A stretch of 64,000 bases of DNA. Source: Mycobacteriales bacterium (GTDB lineage Bacteria > Actinomycetota > Actinomycetes > Mycobacteriales > SCTD01). A program made the translations under genes and the position numbers. The stretch is from the NCBI GenBank assembly GCA_040902655.1, contig JBBDWV010000005.1, forward strand, positions 62,001 through 126,000. The letters run 5' to 3'. Shown in pieces: positions 25,044 to 43,910 of this stretch (the first letter of the stretch is position 1; the number at the start of each line of letters is the position of its first letter). The notes beneath the pieces were generated by a model, which made no database searches, was not told the DNA's origin, and saw only the letters and a program-made list of their open reading frames with translations.

Positions 25044-25571
25044 ATGGGGTTGACACCCGATGACCTCCGAGAGCTGCTCGAGGTGTTCGAGGGCAGCACC
25101 TGGCAGGAGATGACCGTGAACGTCAGCGGCGACAGCCTGCACGTGTCTCGGCGTGCGGAGGCCGCCCCCGCTGCTGCGGCTGAACCCGCCGTGGTGGGCG
25201 CCTCCCCCACACCCGCGACGATGAGTCCGGCGGTCGCCGCGACGAGTGCGTCACCCGAGCCGGCGGCTGCCGGCGCCGCTGAGCCGGCAACGACCGCGGC
25301 TGCGACCTCCGTGGCCGGTGGCGCGCCGGGGACACCCGTTTCGGCGCCGTCGGTCGGGCTGTTCTGGCGGGCACCGAGCCCCGGCGCCCCGCCGTTCGTC
25401 GACGTCGGCAGCCGGGTCGCGGCCGAGGACGCCATCGGCATCGTCGAGGTGATGAAGCTGATGAGCCGGGTGCCGGCCGGCGTCGCCGGCGTCGTCACCG
25501 CGGTTCTGGTCGAGAACGGCGGGATGGTCGAGCACGGCCAGCCGCTGGTCCTCATCGACACCAGCGCCTGA
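25044..25571 (+). CDS. biotin carboxyl carrier protein (copy 1)
   Basis: 175 aa. An N-terminal helical segment (PDDLRELLEVFEGS) like AccB, an Ala/Pro/Thr-rich flexible linker of about 60 residues, then the biotinyl domain with FWRAPSP and EVMKLM; Lys138 is the biotin site. It ferries carboxybiotin between the biotin carboxylase (38444-39853) and a carboxyltransferase. It is 31 nt upstream of carboxyltransferase copy 1, forming a plus-strand operon. Confidence 0.9.
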   Translation: MGLTPDDLRELLEVFEGSTWQEMTVNVSGDSLHVSRRAEAAPAAAAEPAVVGASPTPATMSPAVAATSASPEPAAAGAAEPATTAAATSVAGGAPGTPVSAPSVGLFWRAPSPGAPPFVDVGSRVAAEDAIGIVEVMKLMSRVPAGVAGVVTAVLVENGGMVEHGQPLVLIDTSA

Positions 25572-25602: not shown

Positions 25603-27060
25603 ATGGCCACCATCGACTTCATCGACCAGACCCTGCGGGACGGCCAGCAGAGCCTGTGGGGCATGCGCATGCGCGCCGGGCACATCCTGCCCATCGCCAA
25701 GGCCATCGACTCCGCCGGCTACCGCGTCGTCGACCTCACCGGCAGCTCGCAGTTCGAGGTGCAGGTGCGGTACTGCCGGGACAACCCCTGGGAGGGGCTG
25801 GACCTGGTCTCGGCCGCGATGCCGAACAGCACCCTGCGCGCCGGCACCCGCAGCAACGGCGTCGTCGGGATGGGACGAACTCCGGACGCGATCGTCGAGC
25901 TGTGGGTGCGTACGCTGGCCAAGCACGGGATCGGCAGCCTGTGGATCTTCGACTGCCTGTTCAACCTCGACCAGATGCGGCGCATTGCCCGCGTCGCGCA
26001 CGACGCCGGGATGAGCGTGTCGCCCCAGGTGATGTTCAGCCATTCGCCGGTGCACACGGACGGCTACTTCGAGCGCATCGTTCGCGACATGGCGACCTGG
26101 GACGGCCTCGACAGCATCATCCTCGGCGACGAGCCCGGCGTGCTCACCGCCGACCGCGCGCGGGACTGGATCCCGCGGATGCGCCACGCCGCCGACGGCG
26201 TGCCGCTGGAGATGCACTTCCACAACACCACCGGGCTCGGCACCATCAACTACCTGACCGGAGCCGAGGCCGGCGTGACGATCGTGCACACCGCGGTGTC
26301 GACGCTCGCCAACGGCCCGTCGATGCCGTCCACCGAGGCGACGCTGGACAACATGCGTCGGCTGGGGCACGACGTCGCGATCGACGACTCCCGGCTGCCC
26401 GAGGTCGCCGAGCACTTCCGCGCCGTCGCCGCCGCCGAGGGCTACGCAACCGGCGCTCCGGCCGAGTTCCGGCTGGCGGTCTACCACCAGCAGCTGCCCG
26501 GCGGCATGACCGGGACGCTGCTCAACCAACTGCGCACCTACGGGATGGAGGACCGTCTGCCGGCCGTGCTGGAGGAGGTGGAGGTGGTCCGGGCCGAGAT
26601 GGGCTACCCGGTGATGGCGACGCCGTTCAGCCAGCTCGTCGGCATCCAGGCCATGCTCAACGTCGTCAACGGCGAGCGCTACGGCGTCATCCCCGACGAG
26701 AACCTCGTGTACCTGGCCGGGCACCTCGGCCCCCCACCCGGGACCGTGGACCCCGAGGTGCTCGACCGTGCCTTCGGCAGCCAGCGCGGCCGTTTCATCC
26801 GGGACAACCCGCCGCCGCAGCCGACGCTGGCCGAGATCCGGCGCGAGTACGGCGAGGCGCTGTCCGACGAGGAACTGCTGCTGCGCTACCTCATGCCCGG
26901 CCCGGACGTGGACGCGATGTACGCCGCCGGACCGGTGCCGCAGCGGCTGCCGGCCGACGTCTCGCCGCACACCGCGTGGGTGCGCGACCTCGTCGCCTCG
27001 ACGACAGCCCGGTCGCTGTCCACCCGCTCCGGTGACGTGAGCGTCACCCTGCGCCGATGA
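25603..27060 (+). CDS. biotin-dependent carboxyltransferase-like protein (HMGL/PycB fold, copy 1)
   Basis: 485 aa. TIM-barrel start IDQTLRDGQQSLWG and metal-site HFH (205 and 207), then HTAVSTLANGPSMPSTE and a C-terminal helical domain, like oxaloacetate decarboxylase alpha, transcarboxylase 5S and pyruvate carboxylase. The carbamylated Lys of those enzymes (IKDMAG) is replaced: here the segment reads ILGDEPG, with Gly175. The acceptor is therefore unlikely to be handled exactly as pyruvate. Its paralogue at 35444-36901 has the same length. Confidence 0.82.
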   Translation: MATIDFIDQTLRDGQQSLWGMRMRAGHILPIAKAIDSAGYRVVDLTGSSQFEVQVRYCRDNPWEGLDLVSAAMPNSTLRAGTRSNGVVGMGRTPDAIVELWVRTLAKHGIGSLWIFDCLFNLDQMRRIARVAHDAGMSVSPQVMFSHSPVHTDGYFERIVRDMATWDGLDSIILGDEPGVLTADRARDWIPRMRHAADGVPLEMHFHNTTGLGTINYLTGAEAGVTIVHTAVSTLANGPSMPSTEATLDNMRRLGHDVAIDDSRLPEVAEHFRAVAAAEGYATGAPAEFRLAVYHQQLPGGMTGTLLNQLRTYGMEDRLPAVLEEVEVVRAEMGYPVMATPFSQLVGIQAMLNVVNGERYGVIPDENLVYLAGHLGPPPGTVDPEVLDRAFGSQRGRFIRDNPPPQPTLAEIRREYGEALSDEELLLRYLMPGPDVDAMYAAGPVPQRLPADVSPHTAWVRDLVASTTARSLSTRSGDVSVTLRR

Positions 27061-27073
27061 GCTGGAGAAGCAG

Positions 27074-28261
27074 GTGACCCGCCGCGCCGTGGTCGTCGAC
27101 GTCGTCCGGTCGCCGTTCGCCAAGGGCAAGGAGGGCGGCGCGCTGGTCGGCGTGCACCCGGTCGACCTGCTCGCCGGCGTGCTCGAGGCCCTGCAGCAGC
27201 GCACCGGGATCGACCCCGGAATGGTCGACGACGTCGTGGCTGGCTGCGTGCTGCCGGTGGGCGAGCAATCCGGCAACATCGCCCGGCACGCCGCCCTGGC
27301 GGCCGGCTGGCCCGAGCACGTGCCGGCCACGACGATCGACCGCAAGTGCGGGTCGGCGCAGCAGGCCGTGCAGTTCGCGGCCCAGGCCGTCATGGCCGGC
27401 GAGCAGGACGTCGTCGTCGCCGCCGGCGTCGACATGATGAGCACCGTCCCCATGAAGGCCAACCGGCTCGGTCGGGACGAGCTCGGTCCGCGGCTGCGCG
27501 CGCGCTACCCCAAGGGGCTGGTCCGGCAGGGCATCTCCGCCGAGCTCATCGCCGCCCGGTGGAACGTGAGCCGCGAGGCGAGCGATGCCTGGTCGGTGCG
27601 CTCGCACCGACGTGCCGCCGAGGCACAGCAGGCAGGGGCGCTTCGCGCGCAGATCTCGCCGGTGCGTCGCTCGGACGGCGCCGTCCTCGACACCGACGAG
27701 GGCATCCGCGCGGACACCTCGGTCGAGGCGCTGGCCCGGCTCCGGCCGGCCTTCCACGACGAGCAGGCGGCGCAGCGCCATCCCGAGATCGGCTGGGTCG
27801 TCACCGCCGGGTCGTCGTCGCAGGTCAGCGACGGGGCCAGTGCCGCGCTCGTCGTCGCCGAGGACGTGGCCGACCGACTCGGGCTGCGGCCGCGCGCGGC
27901 CGTCGTCCGGGGGACCGTGGTCGGCGTCGACCCGGTACTCATGCTGCACGGGGTGATCCCGGCGACGCAGCGCGTGCTGGCCCGCACCGGGCTCGGCATC
28001 GACGACATCGACGCCAGCGAGGTCAACGAGGCCTTCGCACCGGTGGTCCTGGCCTGGCTGCGCGAGACCGGCGCCGATCCCGAGCGGGTGAACGTGCACG
28101 GCGGCGCGATCGCGTTCGGCCACCCGGTCGGCGCCTCCGGCGGTCGGCTGCTCGCCACGCTGCTGGACGCGCTCGACGCGCGGCAGGGCCGGTACGGGCT
28201 GCTGACGATGTGTGAGAGCGGCGGAATGGCCAACGCGACGGTGCTGGAACGCCTGTCGTGA
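27074..28261 (+). CDS. thiolase (acetyl-CoA acyltransferase type)
   Basis: 395 aa from GTG 27074. The nucleophile Cys is in IDRKCGSAQQA near residue 90, the catalytic His in GHPVGASGGR near 350 and the second Cys in MCESGGMAN near 382, so the triad is intact. It cleaves a beta-ketoacyl-CoA with CoA. It starts 13 nt after carboxyltransferase copy 1, which fits a pathway where carboxylation produces a beta-keto acid that is thioesterified and thiolysed. Confidence 0.9.
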   Translation: MTRRAVVVDVVRSPFAKGKEGGALVGVHPVDLLAGVLEALQQRTGIDPGMVDDVVAGCVLPVGEQSGNIARHAALAAGWPEHVPATTIDRKCGSAQQAVQFAAQAVMAGEQDVVVAAGVDMMSTVPMKANRLGRDELGPRLRARYPKGLVRQGISAELIAARWNVSREASDAWSVRSHRRAAEAQQAGALRAQISPVRRSDGAVLDTDEGIRADTSVEALARLRPAFHDEQAAQRHPEIGWVVTAGSSSQVSDGASAALVVAEDVADRLGLRPRAAVVRGTVVGVDPVLMLHGVIPATQRVLARTGLGIDDIDASEVNEAFAPVVLAWLRETGADPERVNVHGGAIAFGHPVGASGGRLLATLLDALDARQGRYGLLTMCESGGMANATVLERLS

Positions 28262-28995
28262 CGCCGGGGTGGCAGCCGGCCGGCACGTACAACTTCCGCG
28301 ACCTCGGCGGGCTCTCGACCGAGGACGGCGGCCGGACCCGTTCCGGGATGCTCTTCCGCAGCGACACGATGCAGGAGCTCACGACGGACGACGTCGAGGC
28401 GCTCGTCGAGCGGCTCGGGCTGCGGCTGGTCGTCGACCTGCGCGGACCGGCCGAGGTGGAGCGGGAGGGCCGCGGGCTGCTGGCCGGCTCCCCGGTCCGG
28501 CACGTGAACCTGCCGCTGGACAGCAAGGACGACCGGGCGATCCCTGACCTGGCCCTCGACACGCTGGTGCAGCACTACCTCGGCTACCTGTCGGTCAGCG
28601 CGGGGTCTCTGGTGCAGGCCTTCCGGATGCTCGCCGACGACGGACTCCCGGCCGTCGTGCACTGCGCCGCCGGCAAGGACCGGACCGGGGTGACGACGGC
28701 GCTGGTGCTGCGCGCCGTGGGCGTCCCGGCGGAGGTGGTCGCCGAGGACTACGCGGCGAGCGCGCCCGCCGTCCCGCAGATCCTGGCCCGGCTGCGCCGG
28801 CTGCCGTCCTACGCCGACCGCATCGACCGGCTGCCCGTCGACGTCCACGCCTGCGAGGCGCAGACCATGACGCACTTCCTCACCGAGGTCGACGCGCAGT
28901 TCGGCTCCGTGCGGGGCTTCCTCGTCGACGCCGGCCTGGAGCCGTCCGTGGTGCAGCGGCTGCACGAGCGTCTGGTCGAGCCACCACCAGGCTGA
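28258..28995 (+). CDS. tyrosine-phosphatase-like protein (DSP3/PF13350 type, copy 1)
   Basis: 245 aa. NFRDLGGLSTEDG at the start and the P-loop HCAAGKDRTG (Cys-x5-Arg) near residue 138 identify the atypical Tyr/Ser phosphatase family; the general-acid Asp is probably in the DLRG segment. Coupled to the thiolase by GTGA. A homologue of similar length lies at 29032-29796. It may remove phosphate from a pathway intermediate or from a phospho-histidine subunit; both are inference. Confidence 0.82.
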   Translation: MTPGWQPAGTYNFRDLGGLSTEDGGRTRSGMLFRSDTMQELTTDDVEALVERLGLRLVVDLRGPAEVEREGRGLLAGSPVRHVNLPLDSKDDRAIPDLALDTLVQHYLGYLSVSAGSLVQAFRMLADDGLPAVVHCAAGKDRTGVTTALVLRAVGVPAEVVAEDYAASAPAVPQILARLRRLPSYADRIDRLPVDVHACEAQTMTHFLTEVDAQFGSVRGFLVDAGLEPSVVQRLHERLVEPPPG

Positions 28996-29031: not shown

Positions 29032-29796
29032 TCAGCGGCGATGCTCCTCGCGAAGGGCGGCGCGCACCCGAGCCAGGATCTCGGGTGCCAGCCCCTGATC
29101 GAGCGCCCACCGCTCGGCGCCTCCGTACCGCTCGTCGAGCGCGACCAGGAAGCGGCGCATGGTCGCCGCCTCCGCGGTGTACACCTCCCGCGGCAGCGTG
29201 GCGATGTTGCGGGCATAGGCCGGCGACGGCATCAGCCGCTCGCGCAGGATCACCTCGGCGCTCTCCGCGCTGAGCAGGTAGTCGTCCACCACCGCCTCGG
29301 CCCGCACGCCGACCAGGCGCAGGACGAGCGCCGACAGCACGCCGGTACGGTCCTTGCCCGCTGCGCAGAAGAACACCGTCGGCAGCGTCTCGGCCTCGCT
29401 GAGCAGCTCGATCGCGCGCAGCATCGCCCGTCCCGGCGAGTCCAGGTAGGACAGGTAACGGGGCACCAGGTCGACGGTGCGCCCGTCCTCGAGGTAGCTC
29501 AGCAGCGAGCCGTCCTCCTGCACCAGCGGCAGGTTGACGTACCGGACGTCGCGCTCGGCGAGCAGTCCGCGCCCCTCGCTGAGCACCTCCTCCTCGCCGC
29601 GCAGGTCGACGACGGCGCGTACGCCGAGCCGCTCGTGCAGCAGGGTGGCGCCCTCGGCCGTCACCGACTGCAGGCTGTCGCTGCGGAACAGCCGCCCACG
29701 CCGGGTCGTCCCGCCGTCCTCGGTCGGCAGGCCACCCAGGTCACGCAGGTTGTAGACGCCGTCGAGGCGGTGCCGGCGCGCGGCGGCCGAGGTCAC
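29032..29796 (-). CDS. tyrosine-phosphatase-like protein (DSP3/PF13350 type, copy 2)
   Basis: 254 aa from the GTG of a GTGA overlap with the CoA-ligase gene. It has NLRDLGGLPTEDG near residue 16 and the P-loop FCAAGKDRTG. It is clearly paralogous to the convergent neighbour at 28258-28995, only 36 nt away tail to tail. Each copy is coupled to a different CoA-linked gene (thiolase or ligase), which supports a metabolic role rather than signalling. Confidence 0.82.
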   Translation of the reverse strand: MTSAAARRHRLDGVYNLRDLGGLPTEDGGTTRRGRLFRSDSLQSVTAEGATLLHERLGVRAVVDLRGEEEVLSEGRGLLAERDVRYVNLPLVQEDGSLLSYLEDGRTVDLVPRYLSYLDSPGRAMLRAIELLSEAETLPTVFFCAAGKDRTGVLSALVLRLVGVRAEAVVDDYLLSAESAEVILRERLMPSPAYARNIATLPREVYTAEAATMRRFLVALDERYGGAERWALDQGLAPEILARVRAALREEHRR

Positions 29797-31280
29797 CGCG
29801 GCACCGACTGCACGCGCGCACGCTCGGCATCCCGCACCTCGCGACGCAGGATCTTGTTCGCCGGGCTCTTCGGGAGCGCGTCCCACACCGCGACGCTGCG
29901 CGGCCGCTTGTAGCCTGCGATCCGCTCCCCGACGAACGCGAGAAGCTCCTCCTCGCTCGCCCGGGCGCCCGGGCGCAGCGCGACGACGGCGTGCACCAGC
30001 TCGCCCCACCGCTCCGAGGGCAGGCCGACGACGGCCGCCTCGCGCACCGCCGGGTGGGCGCTGAGCACGTCCTCGACCTCGCGCGGGTAGACGTTCGACC
30101 CGCCCGTGATGATGACGTCGTTGCGGCGGTCGACCAGGTAGAGGAAGCCCTCTTCGTCCATCCGGCCGATGTCGCCGGTGTGCAGCCAGCCGCCGCGCAA
30201 CGCCCCGGCGCTGGCCTCCGGGCGGTTCCAGTATCCGCTCATCACGTGCTGCCCGCGCGTGACCACCTCCCCGGACTCGCCGAGCGGTACCTCTCGGTCG
30301 TCCTCGTCGACCACGCGCACCTCGACGAGCGAGTACGGACGTCCGGCCGAACCGACCCGGTCGTGCTCCTCGGGCTGCAGCACGCTGATGGCCATCGGCG
30401 CCTCGGCCTGGCCGTAGGTCTGCGCGAGCACCCGGCCGAAGACCTGCTGGGCGCGCTCGGTGACCGTCGGCGCCATGGGAGACGCGCCCCAGCACAGCCG
30501 GCGCAGCCTCGGCACCGAGAGCGACTCCGCTCCGGGCTCGTCGACTGCCATGGCGATCATCGTGGGGACGAGGAAGGACGCGGTCGCCCCGGTGCGCTGC
30601 AGCTCCTCCAGGTAGGCCGACGGGTCCCACGTCGTCAGCACGACGTTGTGCGCCCCGCGGACCAGGTGCGGGAGGAAGAACGCGCCACTGGCGTGGATGA
30701 CCGGCGCAGCGTGGAGCATGACGTCACCGGGGCCGACACCAGGCAGCAGGTCGACGAGGAAGTGCGCGAGCTCGGCGTGCTCGCTGCGCATGGTGAGCAC
30801 GGCGCCCTTCGGCTTGCCGGTGGTGCCCCCCGTGTAGCCCAGCCGGTACGGCGCCTCCACGTCCCGCGCGACGTCGCACGGCGGCGCGTCACCCGACCAC
30901 GCCGTCGCCTCGAGCCACTGCGGGTCCCAGGACTGCACCAGGTCCGGGCCGTCGATCGGCGTGCCGCTGTGGACCAGCCCGCGCGAGCCCGAGTCGGTGA
31001 GCTTGTAGGTCCACTCCGCCGGGGTCTCGCGATGGTTCAACGGCACGCGCACGAGCCCGGCCTTGGCCAGCGCGTAGTAGACGACCAGGCCCTCGATGCC
31101 GTTCGGCAGCATGACGCCCACCCGGTCGCCGGGCACGAGACCGCTGGAGAGCAGCGCGTTACCGACGCGGTCGGTGGCCCGGTCGAACTCGGCGAAGGAG
31201 ACGGTGCGCCCGTCCGCGGTCAGGCACGGCGCGTCGCCGAACCGTCGGGCCGCGATGCGGATGAGTGAACCGACCTGCAC
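29793..31280 (-). CDS. AMP-forming acyl-CoA ligase (copy 1)
   Basis: 495 aa. The P-loop-like YTGGTTGKPKGA is near residue 150, followed by YGQAEAP, TGDIGRMDEEG and the C-terminal hinge and Lys motif PKSPANKILRRE. It activates a carboxylic acid to its CoA ester through an acyl-adenylate. The start may be ATG 31280 with GAGGAGGA upstream. It is 42 nt downstream of the SDR gene and upstream of phosphatase copy 2, in a three-gene operon. Confidence 0.9.
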   Translation of the reverse strand: MQVGSLIRIAARRFGDAPCLTADGRTVSFAEFDRATDRVGNALLSSGLVPGDRVGVMLPNGIEGLVVYYALAKAGLVRVPLNHRETPAEWTYKLTDSGSRGLVHSGTPIDGPDLVQSWDPQWLEATAWSGDAPPCDVARDVEAPYRLGYTGGTTGKPKGAVLTMRSEHAELAHFLVDLLPGVGPGDVMLHAAPVIHASGAFFLPHLVRGAHNVVLTTWDPSAYLEELQRTGATASFLVPTMIAMAVDEPGAESLSVPRLRRLCWGASPMAPTVTERAQQVFGRVLAQTYGQAEAPMAISVLQPEEHDRVGSAGRPYSLVEVRVVDEDDREVPLGESGEVVTRGQHVMSGYWNRPEASAGALRGGWLHTGDIGRMDEEGFLYLVDRRNDVIITGGSNVYPREVEDVLSAHPAVREAAVVGLPSERWGELVHAVVALRPGARASEEELLAFVGERIAGYKRPRSVAVWDALPKSPANKILRREVRDAERARVQSVPR

Positions 31281-31322: not shown

Positions 31323-32060
31323 TCAGCCCAACAGGTCGGCGCCGCCGTACACGGCGATCGTCTGACCCGTGACCATTTCCGCCGCGGGCGAGGCCAGGAA
31401 GGCCACCAACCCGAGGTAGTCGTCGTGCCGGAGCCCGCGCCCGGCCGGGATGCTGTCGGCCTTCGCTGCGAGCACGGCCTCGGTGCGGTCGCCGAACAGC
31501 GTGCGCACCGCAGCCGTGTCGAGCATGCCGGGTGCGACGGCGTTCACCCGCACGCCCTGCGGCGCCAGCTCGACCGCGAGGTAGCGCACCAGCGCCTCAC
31601 CGGCGGCCTTGCCGACGCCGACCGCGGCGTAGCCGGGGATCACCACCCGGCCGCCTCGGCTGGACACGAACAGCACGAGGCTGCCTCGCCGCAGCCGGGG
31701 GCGTGCCGCCCGCGTGAGGTGCAGCAGCCCCATGCCGTTGACGGCGACGGCGTGGTCGAACCGCCCGGGGTCGGCCTCGGTGGCGTCGCCGGGGACGACC
31801 TCGACCGCGCAGTGCACGAGCTGGTCGACGTTCTCGCCGTCCGGCACGGCGGCGAGAAGCTCGGCCGCGCCCTCCGGCGTGCCGACGTCGGACGGCACCG
31901 TGACCGGGTGCGCGCCCCGCGCCGCGACACGGTCGCGAGCGGCCGCGGCGACGGCAGCGTCCCGGTGGTAGCCAAGGACGACGGTCGCACCGGGGGTCGC
32001 GAGGGCGGCGGCGATCTCCAGCCCGATACCGCGCGTGCCCCCGCTCACCACCACTGCCAC
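31323..32060 (-). CDS. SDR with enoyl-reductase-like active site
   Basis: 245 aa. The cofactor motif SGGTRGIG is near residue 7. The catalytic Tyr and Lys are spaced as Y-x6-K (YAAVGVGK), as in FabI/InhA/FabL enoyl reductases, not the Y-x3-K of ordinary SDRs. The C-terminal MVTGQTIAVYGG is typical of SDRs. It may reduce an enoyl intermediate, or act on a ketone or alcohol with an altered geometry. It is the first gene of a minus operon; ACATCCGAGGT lies 38 nt upstream. Confidence 0.78.
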   Translation of the reverse strand: MAVVVSGGTRGIGLEIAAALATPGATVVLGYHRDAAVAAAARDRVAARGAHPVTVPSDVGTPEGAAELLAAVPDGENVDQLVHCAVEVVPGDATEADPGRFDHAVAVNGMGLLHLTRAARPRLRRGSLVLFVSSRGGRVVIPGYAAVGVGKAAGEALVRYLAVELAPQGVRVNAVAPGMLDTAAVRTLFGDRTEAVLAAKADSIPAGRGLRHDDYLGLVAFLASPAAEMVTGQTIAVYGGADLLG

Positions 32061-32376: not shown

Positions 32377-33078
32377 ATGACGGAGACCGGCGCCATCCCC
32401 GACAAGTGGGGCGGGGCGGCGATGAACCCGACCGTGGAGTTCTTCCACTCCGCGGTCCGCAAACTGGTGGCCGAACGGCTGGCCGCGTCCGGGAAGAGCT
32501 GGGAGGAGGCGGTCGGCGATCCCTCGCTCGAGCTGACGCGGGAGGACTTCGTGCGCATCGAGGCCGCCATGCTGGCGACCGGCTACCGGTTCGAGGCCTC
32601 GGCGCAGGTCTCCGCCGTGGAGGAGCCGGACAAGTACAAGCCCGAGGGCGTCATCGGCGACAGCGGCCAGCAGCCGCGCGACGAGCAGGGCCGCCTGATC
32701 GTCGGCGCCGGTGACAACGTCTTCCATGCCAAGAGCGACATCACCGGCACAGCCCGGCTCATCAGCACGGTCGACGTGGTGATGGACATGCTCCTCAACG
32801 GCGTGCCGGACGGGACGATCGCCGTCATCGACGACTCCGGCGGCACCCTCACGGCGCCGATCCTCGAGCAGTTCACCGGCGTCATCTGCATGGGCGGAAC
32901 CGTCCGGTCCCACCTGGGCATCCTCACCCGCGAGTACAACATCCCGTGCCTCATGGCGGCCGAGCTCGACGGGCTGAAGGAGGGCGACCGGGTGCTGGTC
33001 GAGTACTCGCGGCCGGCCGCGGATGCCTACGCCGAGCGGGACGACGCAGGTCGCGCCCGCATCATCCAGGTCGACTGA
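32377..33078 (+). CDS. stand-alone PEP-utilising-enzyme mobile (phospho-histidine swivel) domain protein
   Basis: 233 aa from ATG 32377 with GGAGGAGGG upstream. Residues about 20-110 are helical and of unknown family. The C-terminal part resembles the swivelling domain of PEP synthase and PPDK: DGTIAVID, then CMGGTVRSHLGILTREYNIPC with His179 as the likely phosphorylated residue. The loop has one residue more than the usual GGxTSH. It lacks ATP-grasp and PEP domains, so it must receive phosphate from another protein, presumably the dikinase-like protein at 40431-42218. It is co-transcribed with the unknown gene at 33092. Confidence 0.75.
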   Translation: MTETGAIPDKWGGAAMNPTVEFFHSAVRKLVAERLAASGKSWEEAVGDPSLELTREDFVRIEAAMLATGYRFEASAQVSAVEEPDKYKPEGVIGDSGQQPRDEQGRLIVGAGDNVFHAKSDITGTARLISTVDVVMDMLLNGVPDGTIAVIDDSGGTLTAPILEQFTGVICMGGTVRSHLGILTREYNIPCLMAAELDGLKEGDRVLVEYSRPAADAYAERDDAGRARIIQVD

Positions 33079-33091
33079 GAGGACTCCCGCG

Positions 33092-34657
33092 ATGCCCACG
33101 AAGCACAGCTATGCCGACCTGCTCGAGGCCAACGCCTGGATCCGCAAGGCCAGCGACGCCTTCTACTTCCAGTGCACCGCCCGCACCGTGCAGGAGTCCA
33201 AGCTCTTCCCGGTCAACCCCTACATCGCGCTGTCGTACCTCAACGCGTGGTACCGCTACCCCGACCTCTTCCGCAAGATCGAGGCAGCGATGCCGGCGGA
33301 GGAGATCGGCGACTACGCGCGCGAGCGGTCCACCTCGGCGAACATCATCACCAACGGCATTATCGAGCAGTTCTACCTCGGTGGCCGGCAGATGCTCATG
33401 GACATGGGGATGCTCAAGCCGACGGATGCGCTCGACGACGTCATGTACGTCCTCGACTTCACGCGCCGGCTGAACCTCAGCTACCACCGCAACCACGCGC
33501 ACATCCTGCCGACCGACGCGGGCCTGTCGGCGCAGCTGCTGCCCGAGCGTCAGGTGCAGGTGTTCGAGGCCGACGCGCTCGGCACCAAGCCGGGCGACAA
33601 GCTGCACACCGCGGTCGCGCAGTTCCTGGCCGCCGTGAGCCAGTACGCCTTCCTGAAGAACTCCGAGTGCCGCCTGGGCATCCACAACTCCGGCCCCTAC
33701 AAGGTGGCGCAGGGCGAGATGCTCGTGCGCGAGTTCGTCGACCTGGCCGAGAGCGACCTGCCCTGGCTGGACGGGGTGGCGGCCGACGTCGAGCTCAACA
33801 ACATCACGATGCCGGTGTTCATGAAGGACACCCACTTCAACATCGTGGACGACTGGGCCAGCTTCGAGGCCCAGCCCAGCTACAACCACGACAACATGTA
33901 CGCCGTCGGGCTGTACACCTCCGACTACCTCTCGGACGGGTACCTCCCGGTGCACATGGACAGCGCCTCTGAGCTGGCCGACTACCTGGACCACCTGCGA
34001 GACAGCATCCATGCGGCGACGCAGGGGCTGTGGAAGCAGGTCGCCGGCTGGTCCCGTGACCAGATGATCGATTCCGGCCTGCTGGTGTACTACAACGTGC
34101 CCAAGGACCTCGCGCACATCGCGGGCGTCTACGACCAGCAGGACTGGTACACCGTCGAGGACCGCGTGCAGCGGTTCAAGCCGATGTTCAACGACGAGTA
34201 CGGCAACCACCTCATCGCCGAGCTCGTCGGGTACATCTCGCTGCGGTCGCAGCAGGGCAACGAGTACCACATGGCGAAGGGGTCGAACGCCCGCGGCGAC
34301 ATGTGGTCGACCATCCCGTACAGCGTGCTCGGGGACGACGAGTGGACCGAGAGCGTCGGCCCGATCCGCGGCGGCAGCACGTCGCTGCCGCAGAAGACGG
34401 CGCTGTACACCACGACTCAGGGCAAGCTCACCCAGGAGCAGTGCAACGAGGCGGCCAGGGCGCTGCGGGTGCCGACGCTCGAGGACGGCTTGCGCCACCT
34501 CGACGACACGTGGGTGAAGAACCACCCGGACGACCCCCGGGTGCACGAGCTGTACCGCCGCACTCAGGCGAACTCCTTCGCGCTCAAGGACCAGGGCGCC
34601 GGGCTGCTGCGCGAGGACGTCCTGCGGCTCCGCAAGGGGGCCGGCCGGGAGGAGTGA
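33092..34657 (+). CDS. large conserved-looking protein of unknown family
   Basis: 521 aa from ATG 33092, 13 nt after the swivel gene. I do not recognise the family. It is acidic and soluble, with no signal or membrane segment. Striking stretches include NIITNGIIEQFYLGG, YHRNHAHILPTDAG, YNHDNMYAVGLYTSDYL and a Ser/Gln-rich SLRSQQGNEYHMAKG. It has clustered His, Tyr and Asp residues and few low-complexity segments, so it reads as a real enzyme. The linkage to a phospho-His carrier recalls the 70-kDa subunit of phenylphosphate synthase, where a swivel histidine is joined to a large substrate-binding part; here the two would be split (inference). Confidence 0.7.
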   Translation: MPTKHSYADLLEANAWIRKASDAFYFQCTARTVQESKLFPVNPYIALSYLNAWYRYPDLFRKIEAAMPAEEIGDYARERSTSANIITNGIIEQFYLGGRQMLMDMGMLKPTDALDDVMYVLDFTRRLNLSYHRNHAHILPTDAGLSAQLLPERQVQVFEADALGTKPGDKLHTAVAQFLAAVSQYAFLKNSECRLGIHNSGPYKVAQGEMLVREFVDLAESDLPWLDGVAADVELNNITMPVFMKDTHFNIVDDWASFEAQPSYNHDNMYAVGLYTSDYLSDGYLPVHMDSASELADYLDHLRDSIHAATQGLWKQVAGWSRDQMIDSGLLVYYNVPKDLAHIAGVYDQQDWYTVEDRVQRFKPMFNDEYGNHLIAELVGYISLRSQQGNEYHMAKGSNARGDMWSTIPYSVLGDDEWTESVGPIRGGSTSLPQKTALYTTTQGKLTQEQCNEAARALRVPTLEDGLRHLDDTWVKNHPDDPRVHELYRRTQANSFALKDQGAGLLREDVLRLRKGAGREE

Positions 34658-34763: not shown

Positions 34764-35447
34764 TCAGCGCAGCAGGCGGTGCCGAACCAGTGCGGCGCGG
34801 AGCTCGTCAAACGAGCCGACGACGTCGTCGGCTCCGGCAGCCCGTAGCGCCTCCGCGTCGCTGGAGCCCCACGTGACGCCGATGGAGGCGACGCCGGCGG
34901 CGCGACCGGTCGCGATGTCGACGCCGGTGTCGCCCACCATCACGGCCGCGTCGGCCGCGACGTCGAGAGCCTCGAGCACCTGGTGCACCGCCTGCGGGTC
35001 GGGCTTGCCCCGGGCGACGTCCTCGGCACACGCCACAGCGCTCACGAGATGCGCCAGACGCCCGCGGTCGGCGTCGGCGACGTACCGGGCCCGCGCCTTG
35101 CTGGTCACCACGCCGACCGCGATCCCGCGCTCGTGCAGGTCCTCCAGCAGGGCGACCGCGCCCGGGAAGGGGCGGACGCCGTCGGTGGCGTGCCGCTCGT
35201 AGGCGGGTGTGAAGCCGTCCTCCAGCGCCCGAACGACCACCGGGTCGTCGGACAGGCGGGGGAACACCTCGGTGCCACGGCGGCTCAGCACCAGCCGCAC
35301 GTCATCGTCGTCGAGCGGCCAGCGCCGACCGAGGTGCTCCTGCGTGACGTCATGCCAGGCCGCGACGAGCGCCTGCTTGCTGTCGACGATCGTGCCGTCC
35401 CAGTCGAACAGCGCCGCTCCGGCCCACCTCCGGGTCGCGTCGGTCAT
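34764..35447 (-). CDS. HAD-superfamily phosphatase (phosphoglycolate-phosphatase-like)
   Basis: 227 aa. HAD motif I is FDWDGTIVD (nucleophile Asp), motif II VVTSKARAR (Thr/Ser), motif III the Lys of ARGKPDPQAV and motif IV VMVGDTGVD. The cap domain lies between I and II. It is the last gene of the seven-gene minus operon, coupled to carboxyltransferase copy 2 by ATGA. As the third phosphatase in the cluster it may recycle a phosphorylated dead-end product. Confidence 0.85.
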   Translation of the reverse strand: MTDATRRWAGAALFDWDGTIVDSKQALVAAWHDVTQEHLGRRWPLDDDDVRLVLSRRGTEVFPRLSDDPVVVRALEDGFTPAYERHATDGVRPFPGAVALLEDLHERGIAVGVVTSKARARYVADADRGRLAHLVSAVACAEDVARGKPDPQAVHQVLEALDVAADAAVMVGDTGVDIATGRAAGVASIGVTWGSSDAEALRAAGADDVVGSFDELRAALVRHRLLR

Positions 35448-36901
35448 GACCGGCGCAACTCGAGGTCCATGCTCTCGGTGACGACCCGGACGTACGGCGT
35501 CCGCGTCGCGGCGAGCAGCGCGCGCACCTCGTCGACCTCCGGCGACGCGAGCGGGAAGTCCCGGCGGACCGGCCCGGCGGCGCGCATCGCGGCCAGAGCC
35601 GGCTCCGGCAGCAGCGCCCGCAGCACGAGCTCGTCGCCGTCGGTCGTGCCGTGCCGCTTCTGCAGCTCCTCCAGCGTCGGCTGCTCGGGCGGGTTGTCGA
35701 CGACGCGCTGCGCGCGCGGCGCCGCCATGATCCGGTCGAGGACATCCTGGTCGACCGGGGCCGGTGGCGTGCCGTAGTGCCCGGCGGCGTAGCCGATCAC
35801 CTCGTCCGGGACGTGGCTGTACCGGCTGCCGGTGACGATGTTGAGGACGGCCTGCGTACCGACCAGCTGGCTCAGCGGCGTCGCCATGACCGGGTAACCG
35901 AGCTCGCGCCGGACGGCCGCGGTCTCCTCGAGCACCTCGTCGAGCCGGTGGTCCATGCCGTGCTGCGTCAGCTGGGCCTTGAGCGTGCCGACCATGCCGC
36001 CCGGGACCTGGTGCGTGGTGTTGAACAGGTCGTACTCGCTGACCTGGTCGACCAGATAGCCGACGGCCGTCCCGACGGCCCGCATGTGCTCGGCGACCGG
36101 CGGCAGCAGCGCCGTGTCGATCGAGTGCATGCAGCCCACCATCTCGAGGTTGCGCACGACGCTCTCGGTCGACGGGACGGAGGGTCCGTTGGCCATCGGC
36201 CGGCTGGCGGTGTGCAGGATCGTGACGCCGTGCCGGACGGACTCGGCGTAGGCCAGGCCGGACAGCCCCATGAGGTTGTTGGAGTGGAACTCGACCGGCT
36301 TGCCCCCGGCGGCGTCGACGATCGTCGGCACCAGCGTGCGGAGCCGGTCGACGTGCAGGCTCCCGGCCGTGTCGTAGAACAGGATCGTGTCGATCTCGGG
36401 CACCGCCGCCATCTCCGCCGTCCGTGCCGCGAAGTACTCATCGGTGTGCACCGGCGACATCGTGTAGAAGACGGTCCCGGCGATCTCCGAGCCATACTCC
36501 TTGGCCACCCGGCCGAGCCGAGCGAAGTTCTGCACCCCGTACAGCACGTCGTAGATCCAGAAGGACCGGACGCCGTGCTCGTTGAGCCGGCGCATCCACA
36601 GGTCCATGAGTGCGTCCGGCGTCACGCCGAACGAGACCGCCGCGTTCCCCCGCATCCCGCCGCGCATCGGGGTCCGCCGGATCCGCTCCCGAACGAGGTC
36701 GAGCCCCTCCCATGGGTTCTCGCGGCAGTACTTCACGAGCACCTCGAACATCGAGCTGCCCGCATAGTCGATGACGCGGAAACCGGTCTGGTCGAGCAGG
36801 TGGGCGACCGGCAGGGCCATGCCCGCCTGCATCCGCATCCCCCACAGGCTCTGCTGGCCGTCGCGCAGCGTCGTGTCGAGGATCTCCACGTCAGTGGTCA
36901 T
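35444..36901 (-). CDS. biotin-dependent carboxyltransferase-like protein (HMGL/PycB fold, copy 2)
   Basis: 485 aa from ATG 36901, overlapping the CoA-ligase stop by 11 nt. The start LDTTLRDGQQSLWGMRM is nearly identical to copy 1 and the domain order is the same. The carbamyl-Lys position is Tyr176 (ILFYDTAG), and the metal HxH has become HSN (His206, Asn208). It is therefore more degenerate than copy 1 and may be the non-catalytic or substrate-binding half of a heteromer with it. Confidence 0.82.
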   Translation of the reverse strand: MTTDVEILDTTLRDGQQSLWGMRMQAGMALPVAHLLDQTGFRVIDYAGSSMFEVLVKYCRENPWEGLDLVRERIRRTPMRGGMRGNAAVSFGVTPDALMDLWMRRLNEHGVRSFWIYDVLYGVQNFARLGRVAKEYGSEIAGTVFYTMSPVHTDEYFAARTAEMAAVPEIDTILFYDTAGSLHVDRLRTLVPTIVDAAGGKPVEFHSNNLMGLSGLAYAESVRHGVTILHTASRPMANGPSVPSTESVVRNLEMVGCMHSIDTALLPPVAEHMRAVGTAVGYLVDQVSEYDLFNTTHQVPGGMVGTLKAQLTQHGMDHRLDEVLEETAAVRRELGYPVMATPLSQLVGTQAVLNIVTGSRYSHVPDEVIGYAAGHYGTPPAPVDQDVLDRIMAAPRAQRVVDNPPEQPTLEELQKRHGTTDGDELVLRALLPEPALAAMRAAGPVRRDFPLASPEVDEVRALLAATRTPYVRVVTESMDLELRRS

Positions 36902-38447
36902 CAGCGTCCTGTCCGTCGGCGGCGGGCACCTGGCCGCGCAGCGCTGTCTTGAGCACCTTGCCGGCGGCGTTGCGCGGGAGCGCCTCCACCACCACGTACT
37001 GCGTCGGCCGCTTGTGTCGGGCGATCGACGCGAGGCACCGCGCATCCAGGGCGTCGGTGTCGGGCTGCTGCACCGGCGTCGGCACGACGAACGCCACCAG
37101 CCGCTCCCCCCACTCGGCGTCGGGGACGCCGACGACCGCTGCCTCGGCGACGGCGGGGTCGTCCACCAGGACGTCCTCCACCTCGCGCGGGTAGACGTTG
37201 TAGCCGCCGGTGATGACGACGTCCTTGACCCGGTCGACCAGCGTCAGGTGCCCGGCTTCGTCGAACCGGCCGAGGTCTCCGGTGTGCAGCCATCCGCCGC
37301 GCAGCGTCTCCGCCGTGGCGTCCGGGCGTCCGAGGTAGCCAGTCATCACGGTCGGGCCGTCCACGACGACCTCGCCCACCTCACCGGGTGGGAGCGGGCG
37401 GTCATCGGCGTCGACGACGCGGACCCGGGTCGCCCACCGGGCGGTGCCGACGGAGCCGAGACGATCCGGCTCGTGGAGCGCGGCGGCCGTCGCGGCGGCC
37501 GGCATCGCCGTGATCGTGCACGGGCTCTCGCCCTGCCCGTAGCCGTTCCACAGCCGGGGACCCAGAGCCGCGAGGCCGCGGCGCAGGTCGTCGCCGAGCA
37601 CCGGCGCGGCGCCGACGAGGACGGTGCCGAGCCGGTCGACCGCCGACGGCACCGGCGCCCGCTCCACCGCGGCGGTGAGCCGGCGGAGCAGCACCGGCGG
37701 GAGGAAGAAGCTGGATCGATCCTGCCGGCCCACCAGGTCGAACAGCTCGGCCGCGTCGAAGCCCGCCGAGACCGGCAGCACCTGCGTGGCGCCCCGGGCG
37801 AGGAACGGCAGGGCGAACAGCCCGGAGGCGTGGCTGAGCGCGGCGACGTGCACGAACGTGTCGCGCGCGCCGACGTCGGCGACGTCGGCATAGTAGGCCG
37901 CGCTCATCGCGAGCAGATTGCCGTGGCTGAGCCGGGCGCCCTTGGCCTGACCGGTCGTCCCGGAGGTGTAGAAGATCCACGCGTCGTCCACGGCGCTGCG
38001 GCGGACCGGCTCGATCGGCTCGGCGGACGCCGTGGCGCGCTCGTCGTCCGCACCGACGACCAGCAGTCGCGTCCGCGGTGCGAGCAGCGGGGCCAGGTCC
38101 CCGGCGAGGTCGTCGGTCGCCACGCACAGCGGTGCGCTGCAGTCGGCCAGCAGCGCCGCCGCCTCGCGGGCGTGCAGCCGGCCGCTCACCGGCACGGCGA
38201 CCGCGCCGGCGTGCCAGATCGCCAGCAGCCACTCGAGGTACTCGGGGCAGTTCGCGGCGACGAGCGCGACGCGGTCGCCCGGGCGGATACCGAACGTCGT
38301 ACCCAGGGCGCCGGCGCGCCGCGCGACGGCGCCGGCCAACCCGGCCCAGGAGCGCACCGGCCGGTCGCCGAGGAGCACCGCTGGCGCGTCGCCGCGTGCG
38401 CGCGCCGGGCCGTCGAGCAGCAGCGCGAGGTTCGCGGAACCGCTCAT
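36891..38447 (-). CDS. AMP-forming acyl-CoA ligase (copy 2)
   Basis: 518 aa. The motifs FYTSGTTGQAKGA, NGYGQGES and TGDLGRFDEAG and the C-terminal PRNAAGKVLKTAL are all intact. It resembles copy 1 in design but differs considerably in sequence, so the two probably take different acids. Coupled to the biotin carboxylase by ATGA. A likely substrate is the acid released by carboxylation. Confidence 0.9.
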   Translation of the reverse strand: MSGSANLALLLDGPARARGDAPAVLLGDRPVRSWAGLAGAVARRAGALGTTFGIRPGDRVALVAANCPEYLEWLLAIWHAGAVAVPVSGRLHAREAAALLADCSAPLCVATDDLAGDLAPLLAPRTRLLVVGADDERATASAEPIEPVRRSAVDDAWIFYTSGTTGQAKGARLSHGNLLAMSAAYYADVADVGARDTFVHVAALSHASGLFALPFLARGATQVLPVSAGFDAAELFDLVGRQDRSSFFLPPVLLRRLTAAVERAPVPSAVDRLGTVLVGAAPVLGDDLRRGLAALGPRLWNGYGQGESPCTITAMPAAATAAALHEPDRLGSVGTARWATRVRVVDADDRPLPPGEVGEVVVDGPTVMTGYLGRPDATAETLRGGWLHTGDLGRFDEAGHLTLVDRVKDVVITGGYNVYPREVEDVLVDDPAVAEAAVVGVPDAEWGERLVAFVVPTPVQQPDTDALDARCLASIARHKRPTQYVVVEALPRNAAGKVLKTALRGQVPAADGQDADDH

Positions 38448-39853
38448 ACCGCGGCGGGCACCGGCTGACCGGCTCGGGCGCCGCCGGTGCCCGCGTCCGC
38501 GGCAAGGGAGGGCATCAGGTCCTGCTCGACCCAGCGTGTGTGGTGCGTGCCGGCCCGGAAGTCGGCCGAGTCGATGACGGCGAGCAGCATCGGCACGGTC
38601 GTGGACACGCCCTCCACGACCAGGTGGCGCAGCCCCCGGTCGAGCCGGCGCAGCGCCTGCTCGCGGTCGGTTCCGTGGGCGATGACCTTCGCGAGCAGCG
38701 AGTCGTAGTGCGGGGGGATGCGGTAGCCGCCGAAGCAGTGCGTGTCGATCCGCAGTCCCCCGCCGACCGGTTCCACCCAGCGCGTGACCGTGCCCGGACT
38801 CGGCGCGAATCCACGGCTCGGGTTTTCGGCGTTCACCCGGACCTCGACCGCGTGCCCGTCGAGCCGCACGTCGGACTGCCGGAACCGCAGCGGCTCGCCG
38901 CCGGCGATCTGCAGCTGCGCCCGCACGATGTCGATCCCGGTCACCATCTCCGTCACCGGGTGTTCGACCTGAACCCGGGTGTTGACCTCGAGGAACGCGT
39001 ACTGCCCCGTGTCGGCGTCGACGACGAACTCGACGGTCCCGGCCCCGACGTAGTCCAGGGCCCGGGCCAGCTCGACCGCCGCCTCGTGCAGCGACCGGCG
39101 CACCTCCACGGGCACGGACGTCGCCGGCGCCTCCTCCACCAGCTTCTGGTAGCGCCGCTGCGCGGAGCAGTCGCGTTCGCCGAGGTGGACCACGTTGCCG
39201 TGCTGGTCGGCGAGCACCTGCACCTCGACGTGCCGGGCCCGGGTGATGAACCGCTCCAGGTACATCCGCCCGTCGCCGAATGCCGCCTGCGCCTCGCGGC
39301 TGGCGTTCTCGAAGGACTGCGCGAGCCCCTCAGGCCCCTCGACGAGCACCATGCCGCGCCCGCCGCCACCGGCCGCGGCCTTGAGTACTACGGGGTAGCC
39401 GACCCGGTCGGCGATCTCCTGTGCGGTCGTGGCGTCGTCGATCGTGTCGCTGCCCGCGCCGACCGGGATGCCGAGCGACGCGGCGATCCGGCGGGCAGCG
39501 GCCTTGTCCCCACCGCGCCGGATCGTGTCGGCCGACGGGCCGACGAAGGCCAGCCCGTTCTCCGCGCACGCCTCCGGCAGCTCCGGGCGCTCGGAGAGGA
39601 ACCCGTAGCCGGGATGGATGGCGTCGCAGCCGGTGCCCAGCGCGGCCGCGACGACGCGGCCGACGTCGAGGTAGCTCGAGGAGGCGGCGGCCGGACCGAT
39701 GCAGACGGCGCGGTCGGCGACGAGCGCGGCGCGCGAGTCGCGATCGACCTCGGAGACCACGACGACGCTCTCGATGCCCTCGTCGGCGCAGGCACGGATG
39801 ACACGGACGGCGATCTCGCCACGGTTGGCGACAAGGACACGGCGCAGCGACAT
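38444..39853 (-). CDS. biotin carboxylase subunit
   Basis: 469 aa from ATG 39853. LVANRGEIAVRVIR at the start, HPGYGFLSE, the ATP-grasp Gly loop AGGGGRGM, the QKLVEEAPA segment and the bicarbonate-site EVNTRVQVEHPVTE are intact. It carboxylates biotin on the carrier protein using ATP and bicarbonate. It is the single carboxylase for two carriers and two carboxyltransferases, and a complete free-standing subunit like AccC, starting 5 nt past the end of the BCCP copy 2 gene. Confidence 0.93.
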   Translation of the reverse strand: MSLRRVLVANRGEIAVRVIRACADEGIESVVVVSEVDRDSRAALVADRAVCIGPAAASSSYLDVGRVVAAALGTGCDAIHPGYGFLSERPELPEACAENGLAFVGPSADTIRRGGDKAAARRIAASLGIPVGAGSDTIDDATTAQEIADRVGYPVVLKAAAGGGGRGMVLVEGPEGLAQSFENASREAQAAFGDGRMYLERFITRARHVEVQVLADQHGNVVHLGERDCSAQRRYQKLVEEAPATSVPVEVRRSLHEAAVELARALDYVGAGTVEFVVDADTGQYAFLEVNTRVQVEHPVTEMVTGIDIVRAQLQIAGGEPLRFRQSDVRLDGHAVEVRVNAENPSRGFAPSPGTVTRWVEPVGGGLRIDTHCFGGYRIPPHYDSLLAKVIAHGTDREQALRRLDRGLRHLVVEGVSTTVPMLLAVIDSADFRAGTHHTRWVEQDLMPSLAADAGTGGARAGQPVPAAV

Positions 39854-39858
39854 GCGGG

Positions 39859-40434
39859 TCAGGCCTCCTTCTCGATGACGAACAGCGCCTGACCGTGCTC
39901 CACCATCGCGCCGTTCTCGATCTCGACGGAGCGGACCGTGCCGGTCACTCCTGCCTGGACGTGGTTGAACAGCTTCATCACCTCCACGATGCAGACCGGG
40001 TCGTCCGGCTCGACACGCTGCCCGATCTCGACGAACGGCGGGGCGGACGGGTCGGGAGCGCGCCAGAACAGCCCGACGCTTGGCGCGGTCACCCGGTGGG
40101 TGCCCGTCGTGTTCTCCAGGAGCGCCTCGGACCGGCGCTCCGCCGCCTCGACGGCGGCTACCGAGGCGACCTCGGCGGGGGCTCCGACGGCTCCTTCCTC
40201 GACGGGCGGTGGCAGCCGCGCGGCGTCGACGCCCGCAAGCGGCGGCGCCGGGAGGTCGCCGGGCTCCGCCGCCGCTGAGCGGCCCCCCGCCCCTGCGATC
40301 TCGCTGCCGGCCGGCGGCCGCCCGGTCTTGCTGAGCTGCACCTGCTCGCCAGCGAGGCTGAGCCGCATCTCGTCCCACGCGGAAGCGTCGAACGCGGCCA
40401 GGAGCGCCTGCAGGTCGCTCGCCGTCAGGCTCAT
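39859..40434 (-). CDS. biotin carboxyl carrier protein (copy 2)
   Basis: 191 aa from ATG 40434 of an ATGA overlap with the dikinase-like gene. The N-terminal helix SDLQALLAAFDAS parallels copy 1; an Ala/Pro-rich linker leads to FWRAPDP and EVMKLF, with Lys154 as the biotin site. Copy 1 and copy 2 share the same architecture, which fits two alternative or cooperating carboxyltransferases. Confidence 0.9.
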   Translation of the reverse strand: MSLTASDLQALLAAFDASAWDEMRLSLAGEQVQLSKTGRPPAGSEIAGAGGRSAAAEPGDLPAPPLAGVDAARLPPPVEEGAVGAPAEVASVAAVEAAERRSEALLENTTGTHRVTAPSVGLFWRAPDPSAPPFVEIGQRVEPDDPVCIVEVMKLFNHVQAGVTGTVRSVEIENGAMVEHGQALFVIEKEA

Positions 40435-42218
40435 GCCGCGGCCTCGCGGCGGCGGGCGTCGGCGTGCAGGAGGTGCAGCAGCAGGACGAGCGGGGGCTGC
40501 CCGGGGCACGTGACGACGGTGCGCACGCCCGAGTCGAGCACAGCGTCGGCACCCGCGGGGCAGGCCAGGATCGAGCCGCGCACGCTGCGGTTGCCGGCGA
40601 TCGCCTCGACGATCCGGGACCGGTCCGGTGCCTCGTCGGCGGCCAGTGCGACCCCCGCAGCGTCGAGGTCACGCGTGCCGTCCTCCGGCTCCTCCACGAC
40701 CTGCACGGGGCTGGCCTCGCGGGCCCACTCGAGCAGGCGCGACAGCGACGGGTCGTCCTCGACCCGGACGGCCTCGGTCGGCAGGCGCCCGGCGTACACG
40801 ACGCCCTTGGTGGCGTCGACGGTGACCTCCCGGCCGGACCACCCGGCGGTGGCCCCGCTGCCGGCGCCCACCACGCACGGCCGGCCGAGCGCCCGCGTGA
40901 CGACGGCCGCGTGCGAGGTCGACCCGCCGAGCTCGGTGACGACGGCCCGCGCCGCGATCATCCCGGTGATGTCCTCCGGGCTCGTGGTCGGGCGGACGAG
41001 CACGACGTCGCGCCCCTCGGCGGCAGCCGCGGCGGCGGCCTCGCTGTCGGTGACCACGACGCCGGACGCGACCCCCGGGCAGGCCGGCTCCGCACGGGAG
41101 AGCACCTCGGCGGAGTCGGCGCCGCCGGCCAGCCGGGGCTGCAGCACCGAGGACACCTGCTCGGGCGTGACCCGCCGCAGGGCTGTCGCCCGGTCGACGG
41201 CCCCGGCCTCGGCGAAGTCGACCGCGGTACGCACGGCAGCGGCGGGTGACCGCTTGGCCGCCCGGGCCTGGAGCAGGAACAGCCGGCCGCGCTCGACGGT
41301 GAACTCGATGTCCTGGACGTCGCCGTGCTCGCGCTCGAGCGTGCGCCCGATTGAGAGCAGCTCGGCGTGCACGTCGGGGAGCTGCGCGGCCAAGTGGGCC
41401 AGCGTCTGGACGGCGTGCGTACCGCTCACCACGTCCTCGCCCTGTCCGCCGGGCAGCCACTCCCCGTAGGGCTCGGCTGCGCCGGTGAGCGGGTCACGCG
41501 TGAAGAAGACCCCGGTTCCCGACCCCTCGCCGAGGTTGCCGAACACCATGGCCTGCACGGTGACGGCGGTCCCGCCCTCCTCGCTGATCCCCCAGTGCTT
41601 GCGGTAGGCGACCGCACGCCGGCTGCGCCAGGAGTCGAAGACGGCGCTGATGGCCTGCCGCAGCTGCTCGAGCGGGTCACGCGGCACGTCCCGGCCGCAG
41701 TCCCCTCGGATCTCTGCGCGGGTGCGCTCGGCGTCGGAACCGGGTCCCGGCGCGTCCACGTCCGCACCGAGCACGATGCGGCCGAACTGCGAGCAGAACC
41801 GCGTGTGGGTGTCGCACGCGAAGTCCGGATCGCCCGACACCTGGGCCAGCGTGCGCTCCACCTCGTCGGTCATCCCGAGGTTGAGGACGGTGTCCATCAT
41901 CCCGGGCATGCTCACGGGAGCTCCGCTGCGGACGCTGACCAGCAGAGGCGCGGCGGGGTCGCCGAGCCGGCGCCCGGTCTCCTGCTCGAGGCGGCGCAGG
42001 CCCTCGAGCACCGCCTGCCACGTCTCGTCGTCCAACTGCCGGCCGTTCTCGTGGTAGCGGTGGCACTCGGTAACGGGCAGGACGAACGCCCCTGGCACCG
42101 GCAGCCCGAGCCGCCGCATGCGGACGATCCCCCACGCCTTGCCGCCGAGCACGTCCTTGCCCAGTGCGACGGACCCGTCGAGCAAGACGACGCGTTCCAC
42201 TGCCACGGTGGCCGTCAC
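40431..42218 (-). CDS. PPDK-like dikinase lacking the PEP/pyruvate barrel
   Basis: 595 aa from GTG 42218 (GTGA overlap with the small upstream gene). Residues 1-330 match the nucleotide-binding half of pyruvate phosphate dikinase: LGGKAWG, SVRSGAPVSMPGMMDTVLN, RFCSQFGR and GDVQDIEFT. The swivel domain follows with ELGGSTSHAAVV, catalytic His436. PPDK is about 870 aa because of a C-terminal PEP/pyruvate barrel; here only about 115 residues of unrelated sequence follow. ATP should phosphorylate His436, but the acceptor cannot be pyruvate bound in cis. By analogy with phenylphosphate synthase, phosphate may pass to an enol or phenol, or to the swivel protein at 32377. Confidence 0.85.
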   Translation of the reverse strand: MTATVAVERVVLLDGSVALGKDVLGGKAWGIVRMRRLGLPVPGAFVLPVTECHRYHENGRQLDDETWQAVLEGLRRLEQETGRRLGDPAAPLLVSVRSGAPVSMPGMMDTVLNLGMTDEVERTLAQVSGDPDFACDTHTRFCSQFGRIVLGADVDAPGPGSDAERTRAEIRGDCGRDVPRDPLEQLRQAISAVFDSWRSRRAVAYRKHWGISEEGGTAVTVQAMVFGNLGEGSGTGVFFTRDPLTGAAEPYGEWLPGGQGEDVVSGTHAVQTLAHLAAQLPDVHAELLSIGRTLEREHGDVQDIEFTVERGRLFLLQARAAKRSPAAAVRTAVDFAEAGAVDRATALRRVTPEQVSSVLQPRLAGGADSAEVLSRAEPACPGVASGVVVTDSEAAAAAAAEGRDVVLVRPTTSPEDITGMIAARAVVTELGGSTSHAAVVTRALGRPCVVGAGSGATAGWSGREVTVDATKGVVYAGRLPTEAVRVEDDPSLSRLLEWAREASPVQVVEEPEDGTRDLDAAGVALAADEAPDRSRIVEAIAGNRSVRGSILACPAGADAVLDSGVRTVVTCPGQPPLVLLLHLLHADARRREAAA

Positions 42219-43868: not shown

Positions 43869-43910
43869 GGCGGTCGGGGTCAGCGCGAGAGCAGCGTGAC
43901 CCCGATCGCC
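43869..43910. terminator. hairpin between convergent SDR and thiolase
   Basis: A 14-bp stem with one mismatch (43869-43882 with 43897-43910) spans the 25-nt gap and the 3' end of the thiolase gene. It could act in both directions. Confidence 0.55.

Follow-up and report, generated by a model that had tools for sequence, protein, structure and literature searches.

A new protein family as the probable acceptor subunit of a four-part swivel dikinase in an actinomycete carboxylation gene cluster

The unnamed 521-residue protein described here probably serves as acceptor subunit in a small-molecule dikinase of four parts, which would open a carboxylation pathway resembling that of Hpe, and its family, which no catalogue lists, probably supplies the acceptor subunits of swivel dikinases. 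Its gene lies in a 64,000-nucleotide stretch of Mycobacteriales DNA, analysed as a whole and called the window below. The gene set points to a second acceptor family, unrelated to the substrate domain of the rifampin phosphotransferase (RPH) type, and neither this family nor the four-part build of the kinase is represented in reference databases. Moreover, the set offers a concrete role for truncated pyruvate phosphate dikinases (PPDKs) of the VadK type, and it names a carboxylation pathway whose substrate is directly testable. The four genes of the putative kinase are:

32377..33078, + strand: 233-residue swivel protein (PF00391, E 3.7e-7)
33092..34657, + strand: 521-residue probable acceptor (substrate-binding) subunit, unnamed new family
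40431..42218, - strand: truncated PPDK, 595 residues, ATP-grasp plus swivel
42215..42820, - strand: helical protein of about 200 residues beside the PPDK

Results

The 521-residue protein and its family

The open reading frame is a true gene, because it has a GAGAGGA ribosome-binding site upstream, a G+C content of 0.63/0.39/0.97 at codon positions 1, 2 and 3, and, against the orthologue of Geodermatophilus amargosae (91% identical), a dN of about 0.05 with a dS of about 0.49, for a dN/dS of about 0.11. It starts 13 bp past the stop codon of the swivel gene. Both the coordinates and the adjacency given in the initial annotation were verified. The product (59.0 kDa, GRAVY -0.44) has a peak 19-residue hydropathy of 0.92 and thus no membrane segment, in agreement with its earlier description as soluble. 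Clusters of conserved histidine, aspartate and tyrosine had also been pointed out; these are partly conserved, but the His-rich stretches are confined to close orthologues. The core of the family spans approximately residues 1-370, with a C-terminal extension present in close orthologues only. Across the family G98, R99, R194, G201, P202, P262 and Y333 are invariant, and Y44, Y203, R213 and W225 nearly so; as a pointer to function, the conserved arginines R99, R194 and R213 are only suggestive.

Searches of Pfam, NCBIfam and PDB gave no match for the 521-residue protein and none that was meaningful for any of 28 relatives, and the profile of the 28-member family likewise matched nothing in Pfam, NCBIfam or PDB. 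The family was thus rightly called unrecognised, and no clear match to an unrelated family came out of these searches; nor was a description of it found in the open-access literature. Since it is invisible to Pfam and NCBIfam, its members are annotated “hypothetical protein.” Close orthologues (48-91% identity) occur in G. amargosae, in one more genome of the same family, in at least 6 genomes of another actinomycete family, on two Rhodococcus plasmids and on one Novosphingobium plasmid. Distant members (17-30% identity) come from other parts of the phylum and from plasmids of Rhodococcus, Paraburkholderia and Methylibium. The family thus has a wide but scattered distribution among Actinomycetes and part of the Proteobacteria; of 24 genomes in the window's own family, 2 have it. 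The single match in the same-family genome G022 (E 3e-4) was set aside as noise: it is a fragment of 75 residues interrupted by a stop codon, and the A4 profile missed it. Genes in the relatives were called by a simple script, and their starts may be misplaced, above all in lower-GC loci; the main conclusions on these loci were repeated with tblastn.

Swivel protein and natural fusions

The start codon of the swivel protein was picked by comparison with orthologues; its catalytic His179 sits in GGTVRSHLGIL, and it carries an N-terminal extension of about 100 residues. A swivel gene, usually adjacent, accompanies nearly every acceptor relative with enough flanking sequence, and of 28 small swivels all but one, which is a gene-call truncation, retain the histidine. 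At least five acceptor relatives are natural fusions, 565-793 residues long and with the swivel N-terminal in every case. Some join swivel and acceptor (L071, L031:7584-9281 and the annotated gene L048:12472-14100), and others include the ~200-residue domain as a third part (L022, L025, L028 and L072). A search for fused versions had been proposed as a check, and those found match the proposed role. Swivel and acceptor distances are correlated (r = 0.951 over 25 pairs, with none of 2000 permutations as high), a value to which co-inheritance contributes.

The donor module and the acceptor slot

Only PPDK_N and PEP-utilizers domains were found in the truncated PPDK, the PEP/pyruvate TIM barrel being absent. 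Its swivel histidine is His436, in GGSTSHAAVV, and the catalytic histidine is retained in 15 of 15 PPDKs. One PPDK_N protein and exactly two PF00391 swivels are encoded in the whole genome, all inside this cluster; hence the ATP-grasp partner can only be the truncated PPDK. Two PPDKs of 826 residues (L023 2926-5406 and L024 14077-16557) retain a C-terminal region in which visual inspection suggests a degenerate PEP-binding barrel; in L023, the one tested, it has no Pfam match.

The ~200-residue protein, trimmed to 179 residues for the analyses, adjoins the PPDK in the window and in most other loci; in distant relatives it forms a single chain with the acceptor. At four loci (L044, L045, L057 and L058) the PPDK and ~200-residue pair lies instead beside acceptors resembling RPH or HpeH, and the C-terminal part of the plasmid-borne alternative acceptor matches RPH at E 9e-34. 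Since the same pair is served by such acceptors elsewhere, the 521-residue family fills the acceptor slot. The earlier proposal of a substrate-binding subunit of a phosphorylating enzyme is thus upheld as the probable reading, from swivel adjacency, fusions, co-varying distances, a single possible ATP-grasp partner and the slot itself; by elimination and position, the 521-residue protein is the best candidate for binding the substrate.

It is fairly improbable that the protein is instead a docking scaffold between PPDK and swivel, with the small molecule bound by the swivel's N-terminal extension, the ~200-residue protein or the carboxylase. The fusions do link the family to both the swivel and the ~200-residue domain, as a scaffold would. 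However, the 521-residue protein is the largest and most diversified of the acceptor-side subunits, distant relatives of the swivel do not have the N-terminal extension, and the ~200-residue protein, because it pairs with other acceptor types, cannot set specificity.

Relationship to phenylphosphate synthase and its kin

The initial annotation had seen in the 521-residue protein a split or permuted relative of the large subunit of phenylphosphate synthase, partly on grounds of size. HpeH, CreH and PpsA share about 45% identity among themselves and have an RPH-like substrate domain (PMC12167813). The fusions are similar in length to HpeH and PpsA. Swivel plus 521-residue protein come to 754 residues and 84 kDa, in excess of the 70-kDa PpsA and the 71-kDa HpeH. 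The proposed kinship was not borne out. With the PpsA family (HpeH/CreH/PpsA) represented by RPH (L061) and the RPH/HpeH-like plasmid proteins, hhalign gave E 0.44 and 0.51 at a probability of 0.1% for the acceptor family, whereas the controls worked: the same profiles detected the swivel (E 2.5e-9), and a comparison of one half of the acceptor family with the other gave E 1.8e-33.

Structure prediction led to the same conclusion. The AlphaFold model of the natural fusion L025 reached pLDDT 87.6 and pTM 0.74, with the acceptor mostly above 90. Against PDB, Foldseek matched its swivel to PPDK, pyruvate kinase and RPH, the RPH match being limited to 116 columns, the size of the swivel, and it returned nothing convincing for the acceptor part. 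Thus no solved structure is recognised as a relative of the acceptor fold. The AlphaFold model of the 521-residue protein itself was of low confidence (pLDDT 67), and the Foldseek matches that it gave were discarded as noise. That the protein is a PpsA/HpeH/RPH-type substrate domain, circularly permuted and diverged past recognition, is decidedly unlikely on these results and on the lack of any PDB profile match, even though the genomic role is the same, a swivel is shared and the fusions approach HpeH and PpsA in size.

The carboxylation gene cluster

Between 23 and 45 kb the window also carries the following genes:

23139..24155, + strand: biotin synthase BioB, the genome's second copy
25044..25571, + strand: biotin carboxyl carrier protein 1
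25603..27060, + strand: pyruvate-carboxylase-type carboxyltransferase 1, 46% identical to copy 2
27074..28261, + strand: thiolase 1 (acetyl-CoA C-acyltransferase)
28258..28995, + strand: Y_phosphatase3 1 (PF13350), candidate for dephosphorylating the pathway intermediate
29032..29796, - strand: Y_phosphatase3 2
29793..31280, - strand: AMP-forming acyl-CoA ligase 1
31323..32060, - strand: short-chain dehydrogenase 1
34764..35447, - strand: HAD-type phosphatase
35444..36901, - strand: pyruvate-carboxylase-type carboxyltransferase 2
36891..38447, - strand: AMP-forming acyl-CoA ligase 2
38444..39853, - strand: biotin carboxylase
39859..40434, - strand: biotin carboxyl carrier protein 2
43066..43854, + strand: short-chain dehydrogenase 2
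43880..45061, - strand: thiolase 2 (lipid-transfer/BbsB-like)

Swivel, PPDK, ~200-residue protein and carboxyltransferase are present at all 11 other loci with an orthologue at least 48% identical, one of them the Novosphingobium plasmid. Biotin carboxylase is found at 9 of the 11, and the contigs of the remaining two stop too soon. Every one of these loci with enough sequence also has a CoA ligase and one or more thiolases, and about half have Y_phosphatase3 genes. Kinase, biotin carboxylase, carrier, carboxyltransferase, phosphatase and CoA ligase stand together in the window, L031, L048, L015, L017/L086 and L019/L087; in L031 and L048 the kinase, carboxylase, ligase, thiolase and phosphatase genes run head to tail. 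The order on the Rhodococcus plasmids, likewise head to tail, is swivel, acceptor, CoA ligase, ~200-residue protein, PPDK, carrier (BCCP), biotin carboxylase, carboxyltransferase, an OB-fold protein, thiolase and phosphatase. The window's extras are the second carboxyltransferase, second carrier, second Y_phosphatase3, HAD phosphatase and second BioB, the genome's other BioB being on contig C52. On the Novosphingobium plasmid (L033) the orthologue likewise has a BioB-like neighbour. The two carboxyltransferases each have their own carrier, but there is a single biotin carboxylase; both carboxyltransferases are also kept in several genomes from a different family.

The proposed reaction sequence

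The 595-residue PPDK would phosphorylate its own swivel histidine with ATP, a step shown for its relative VadK, a truncated PPDK that autophosphorylates on swivel histidine H422 (PMC13400623). The phosphate would then move from His436 to His179 of the small swivel protein, which would dock on the 521-residue subunit and phosphorylate a hydroxyl or enol of the bound molecule; for HpeH, phosphate transfer between phenols through the swivel histidine has been reported (PMC12167813). The ~200-residue protein probably keeps donor and acceptor together. From there the phosphorylated product may pass through biotin carboxylase and carboxyltransferase, dephosphorylation, CoA joining and thiolase cleavage, the two thiolases being candidates for the last step. 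To our knowledge the characterised small-molecule dikinases have one swivel and, where the substrate domain is known, it is of RPH type; we know of no precedent among them for two swivels in one system.

The best reading of the downstream genes is that the pathway follows the logic of Hpe, as in the breakdown of lignin-derived ketones, where 4-hydroxyacetophenone or acetovanillone is phosphorylated, only the phosphorylated ketone is carboxylated, and phosphate removal, CoA addition and cleavage follow (PMC9618137). If this logic applies, a hydroxyaryl methyl ketone or similar hydroxy-ketone would be the likeliest substrate.

The same machine might act by enol phosphorylation, with the phosphoenol of a ketone carboxylated with loss of phosphate, so that the substrate needs no hydroxyl. 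PPDK and PEP synthase chemistry is enol phosphorylation, PEP synthase making a phosphoenol from pyruvate, and this counts for such a route, as does a carboxyltransferase of the pyruvate carboxylase type. We consider it rather unlikely, since the closest characterised pathway phosphorylates a phenol hydroxyl and has a dedicated phosphatase that acts after carboxylation (PMC9618137), and the window has two Y_phosphatase3 genes and a HAD phosphatase. Acetone carboxylation via an enol phosphate was dropped as the lead because the substrate of the Hpe carboxylase is a phenol phosphate, and is retained as a rival.

The set might also be a regulatory histidine phosphorelay that controls the carboxylase and makes no phosphorylated metabolite, as proposed for VadK, whose layout (ATP-grasp plus swivel, with a ~200-residue operon partner) the PPDK shares and which both autophosphorylates and binds methylcitrate-cycle enzymes (PMC13400623). 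This appears very unlikely. The set is accompanied by Y_phosphatase3-type phosphatases, the RPH/HpeH-type acceptors that replace the 521-residue family in other loci include characterised ones that phosphorylate small molecules, and HpeCBA, a comparable biotin carboxylase, requires a phosphorylated substrate (PMC9618137).

Neighbourhoods of distant relatives

Most of the distant acceptor relatives sit in clusters without a carboxylase, and the kinase is therefore not tied to ketone carboxylation. On the plasmid of Methylibium petroleiphilum PM1, a known MTBE degrader, distant acceptor, swivel and ~200-residue genes (L029 14986-17875) lie a few kb before a methylmalonyl-CoA mutase family/B12 gene set; a part in tertiary alcohol use is conceivable. 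Two other distant swivel-acceptor-PPDK sets (L030 15007-31841 and L023 5399-5713) adjoin bacterial microcompartment shell genes, and DUF7064/DUF7065 proteins repeatedly adjoin these kinases (L021 3893-7493, L024 13009-14019, L044 and L045).

Discussion

The four-part dikinase may represent a new class, in which a repurposed PPDK relays phosphate via two swivel histidines to a substrate held on a new fold, the PPDK and ~200-residue pair serving as a general donor module for interchangeable acceptors (the 521-residue family or RPH-like proteins) across ketone, terpenoid-like and microcompartment-associated catabolism. We offer this generalisation tentatively, as somewhat more doubtful than secure.

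Among known systems, HpeHI, CreHI and PpsAB share with the window an ATP-grasp component, a swivel-histidine component, a separate substrate-binding part, a conserved catalytic histidine in the acceptor-side swivel (here His179, in SHLGI) and a place at the start of a catabolic route, followed in Hpe by biotin-dependent carboxylation, a phosphatase and a CoA ligase. They differ in having two components as against four proteins, and in that their ATP-grasp protein carries no swivel, whereas the window's PPDK has PF00391 with TSHAAVV. Moreover, their swivel is C-terminal on the acceptor and here is a separate gene, N-terminal in fusions, and their substrate domain is homologous to RPH, while hhalign and Foldseek detected no acceptor kinship here. 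RPH itself likewise has a swivel domain between ATP site and small-molecule site, but in a single chain and with a substrate-binding domain unlike the 521-residue family. Compared with pyruvate phosphate dikinase, the donor is without the C-terminal PEP/pyruvate TIM barrel.

The pair at 40431-42820 has the layout of VadK (Rv1127c) and Rv1126c of M. tuberculosis, a truncated PPDK (ATP-grasp plus swivel) with a ~200-residue operon partner, although no acceptor of the 521-residue family has been described with VadK, which is proposed to regulate proteins. Across actinomycetes such pairs travel with dedicated acceptor genes, and an acceptor for VadK is therefore worth seeking. Finally, the Hpe/Acv clusters of R. 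rhodochrous GD02 and Sphingobium SYK-6 differ from the window in their kinase and in ending with the beta-keto hydrolase HpeF, a step for which the window's candidates are its two thiolases, and the window has Y_phosphatase3 enzymes and two carboxyltransferases; the genes for a kinase, a three-part biotin carboxylase, a phosphatase and a CoA ligase are what they have in common.
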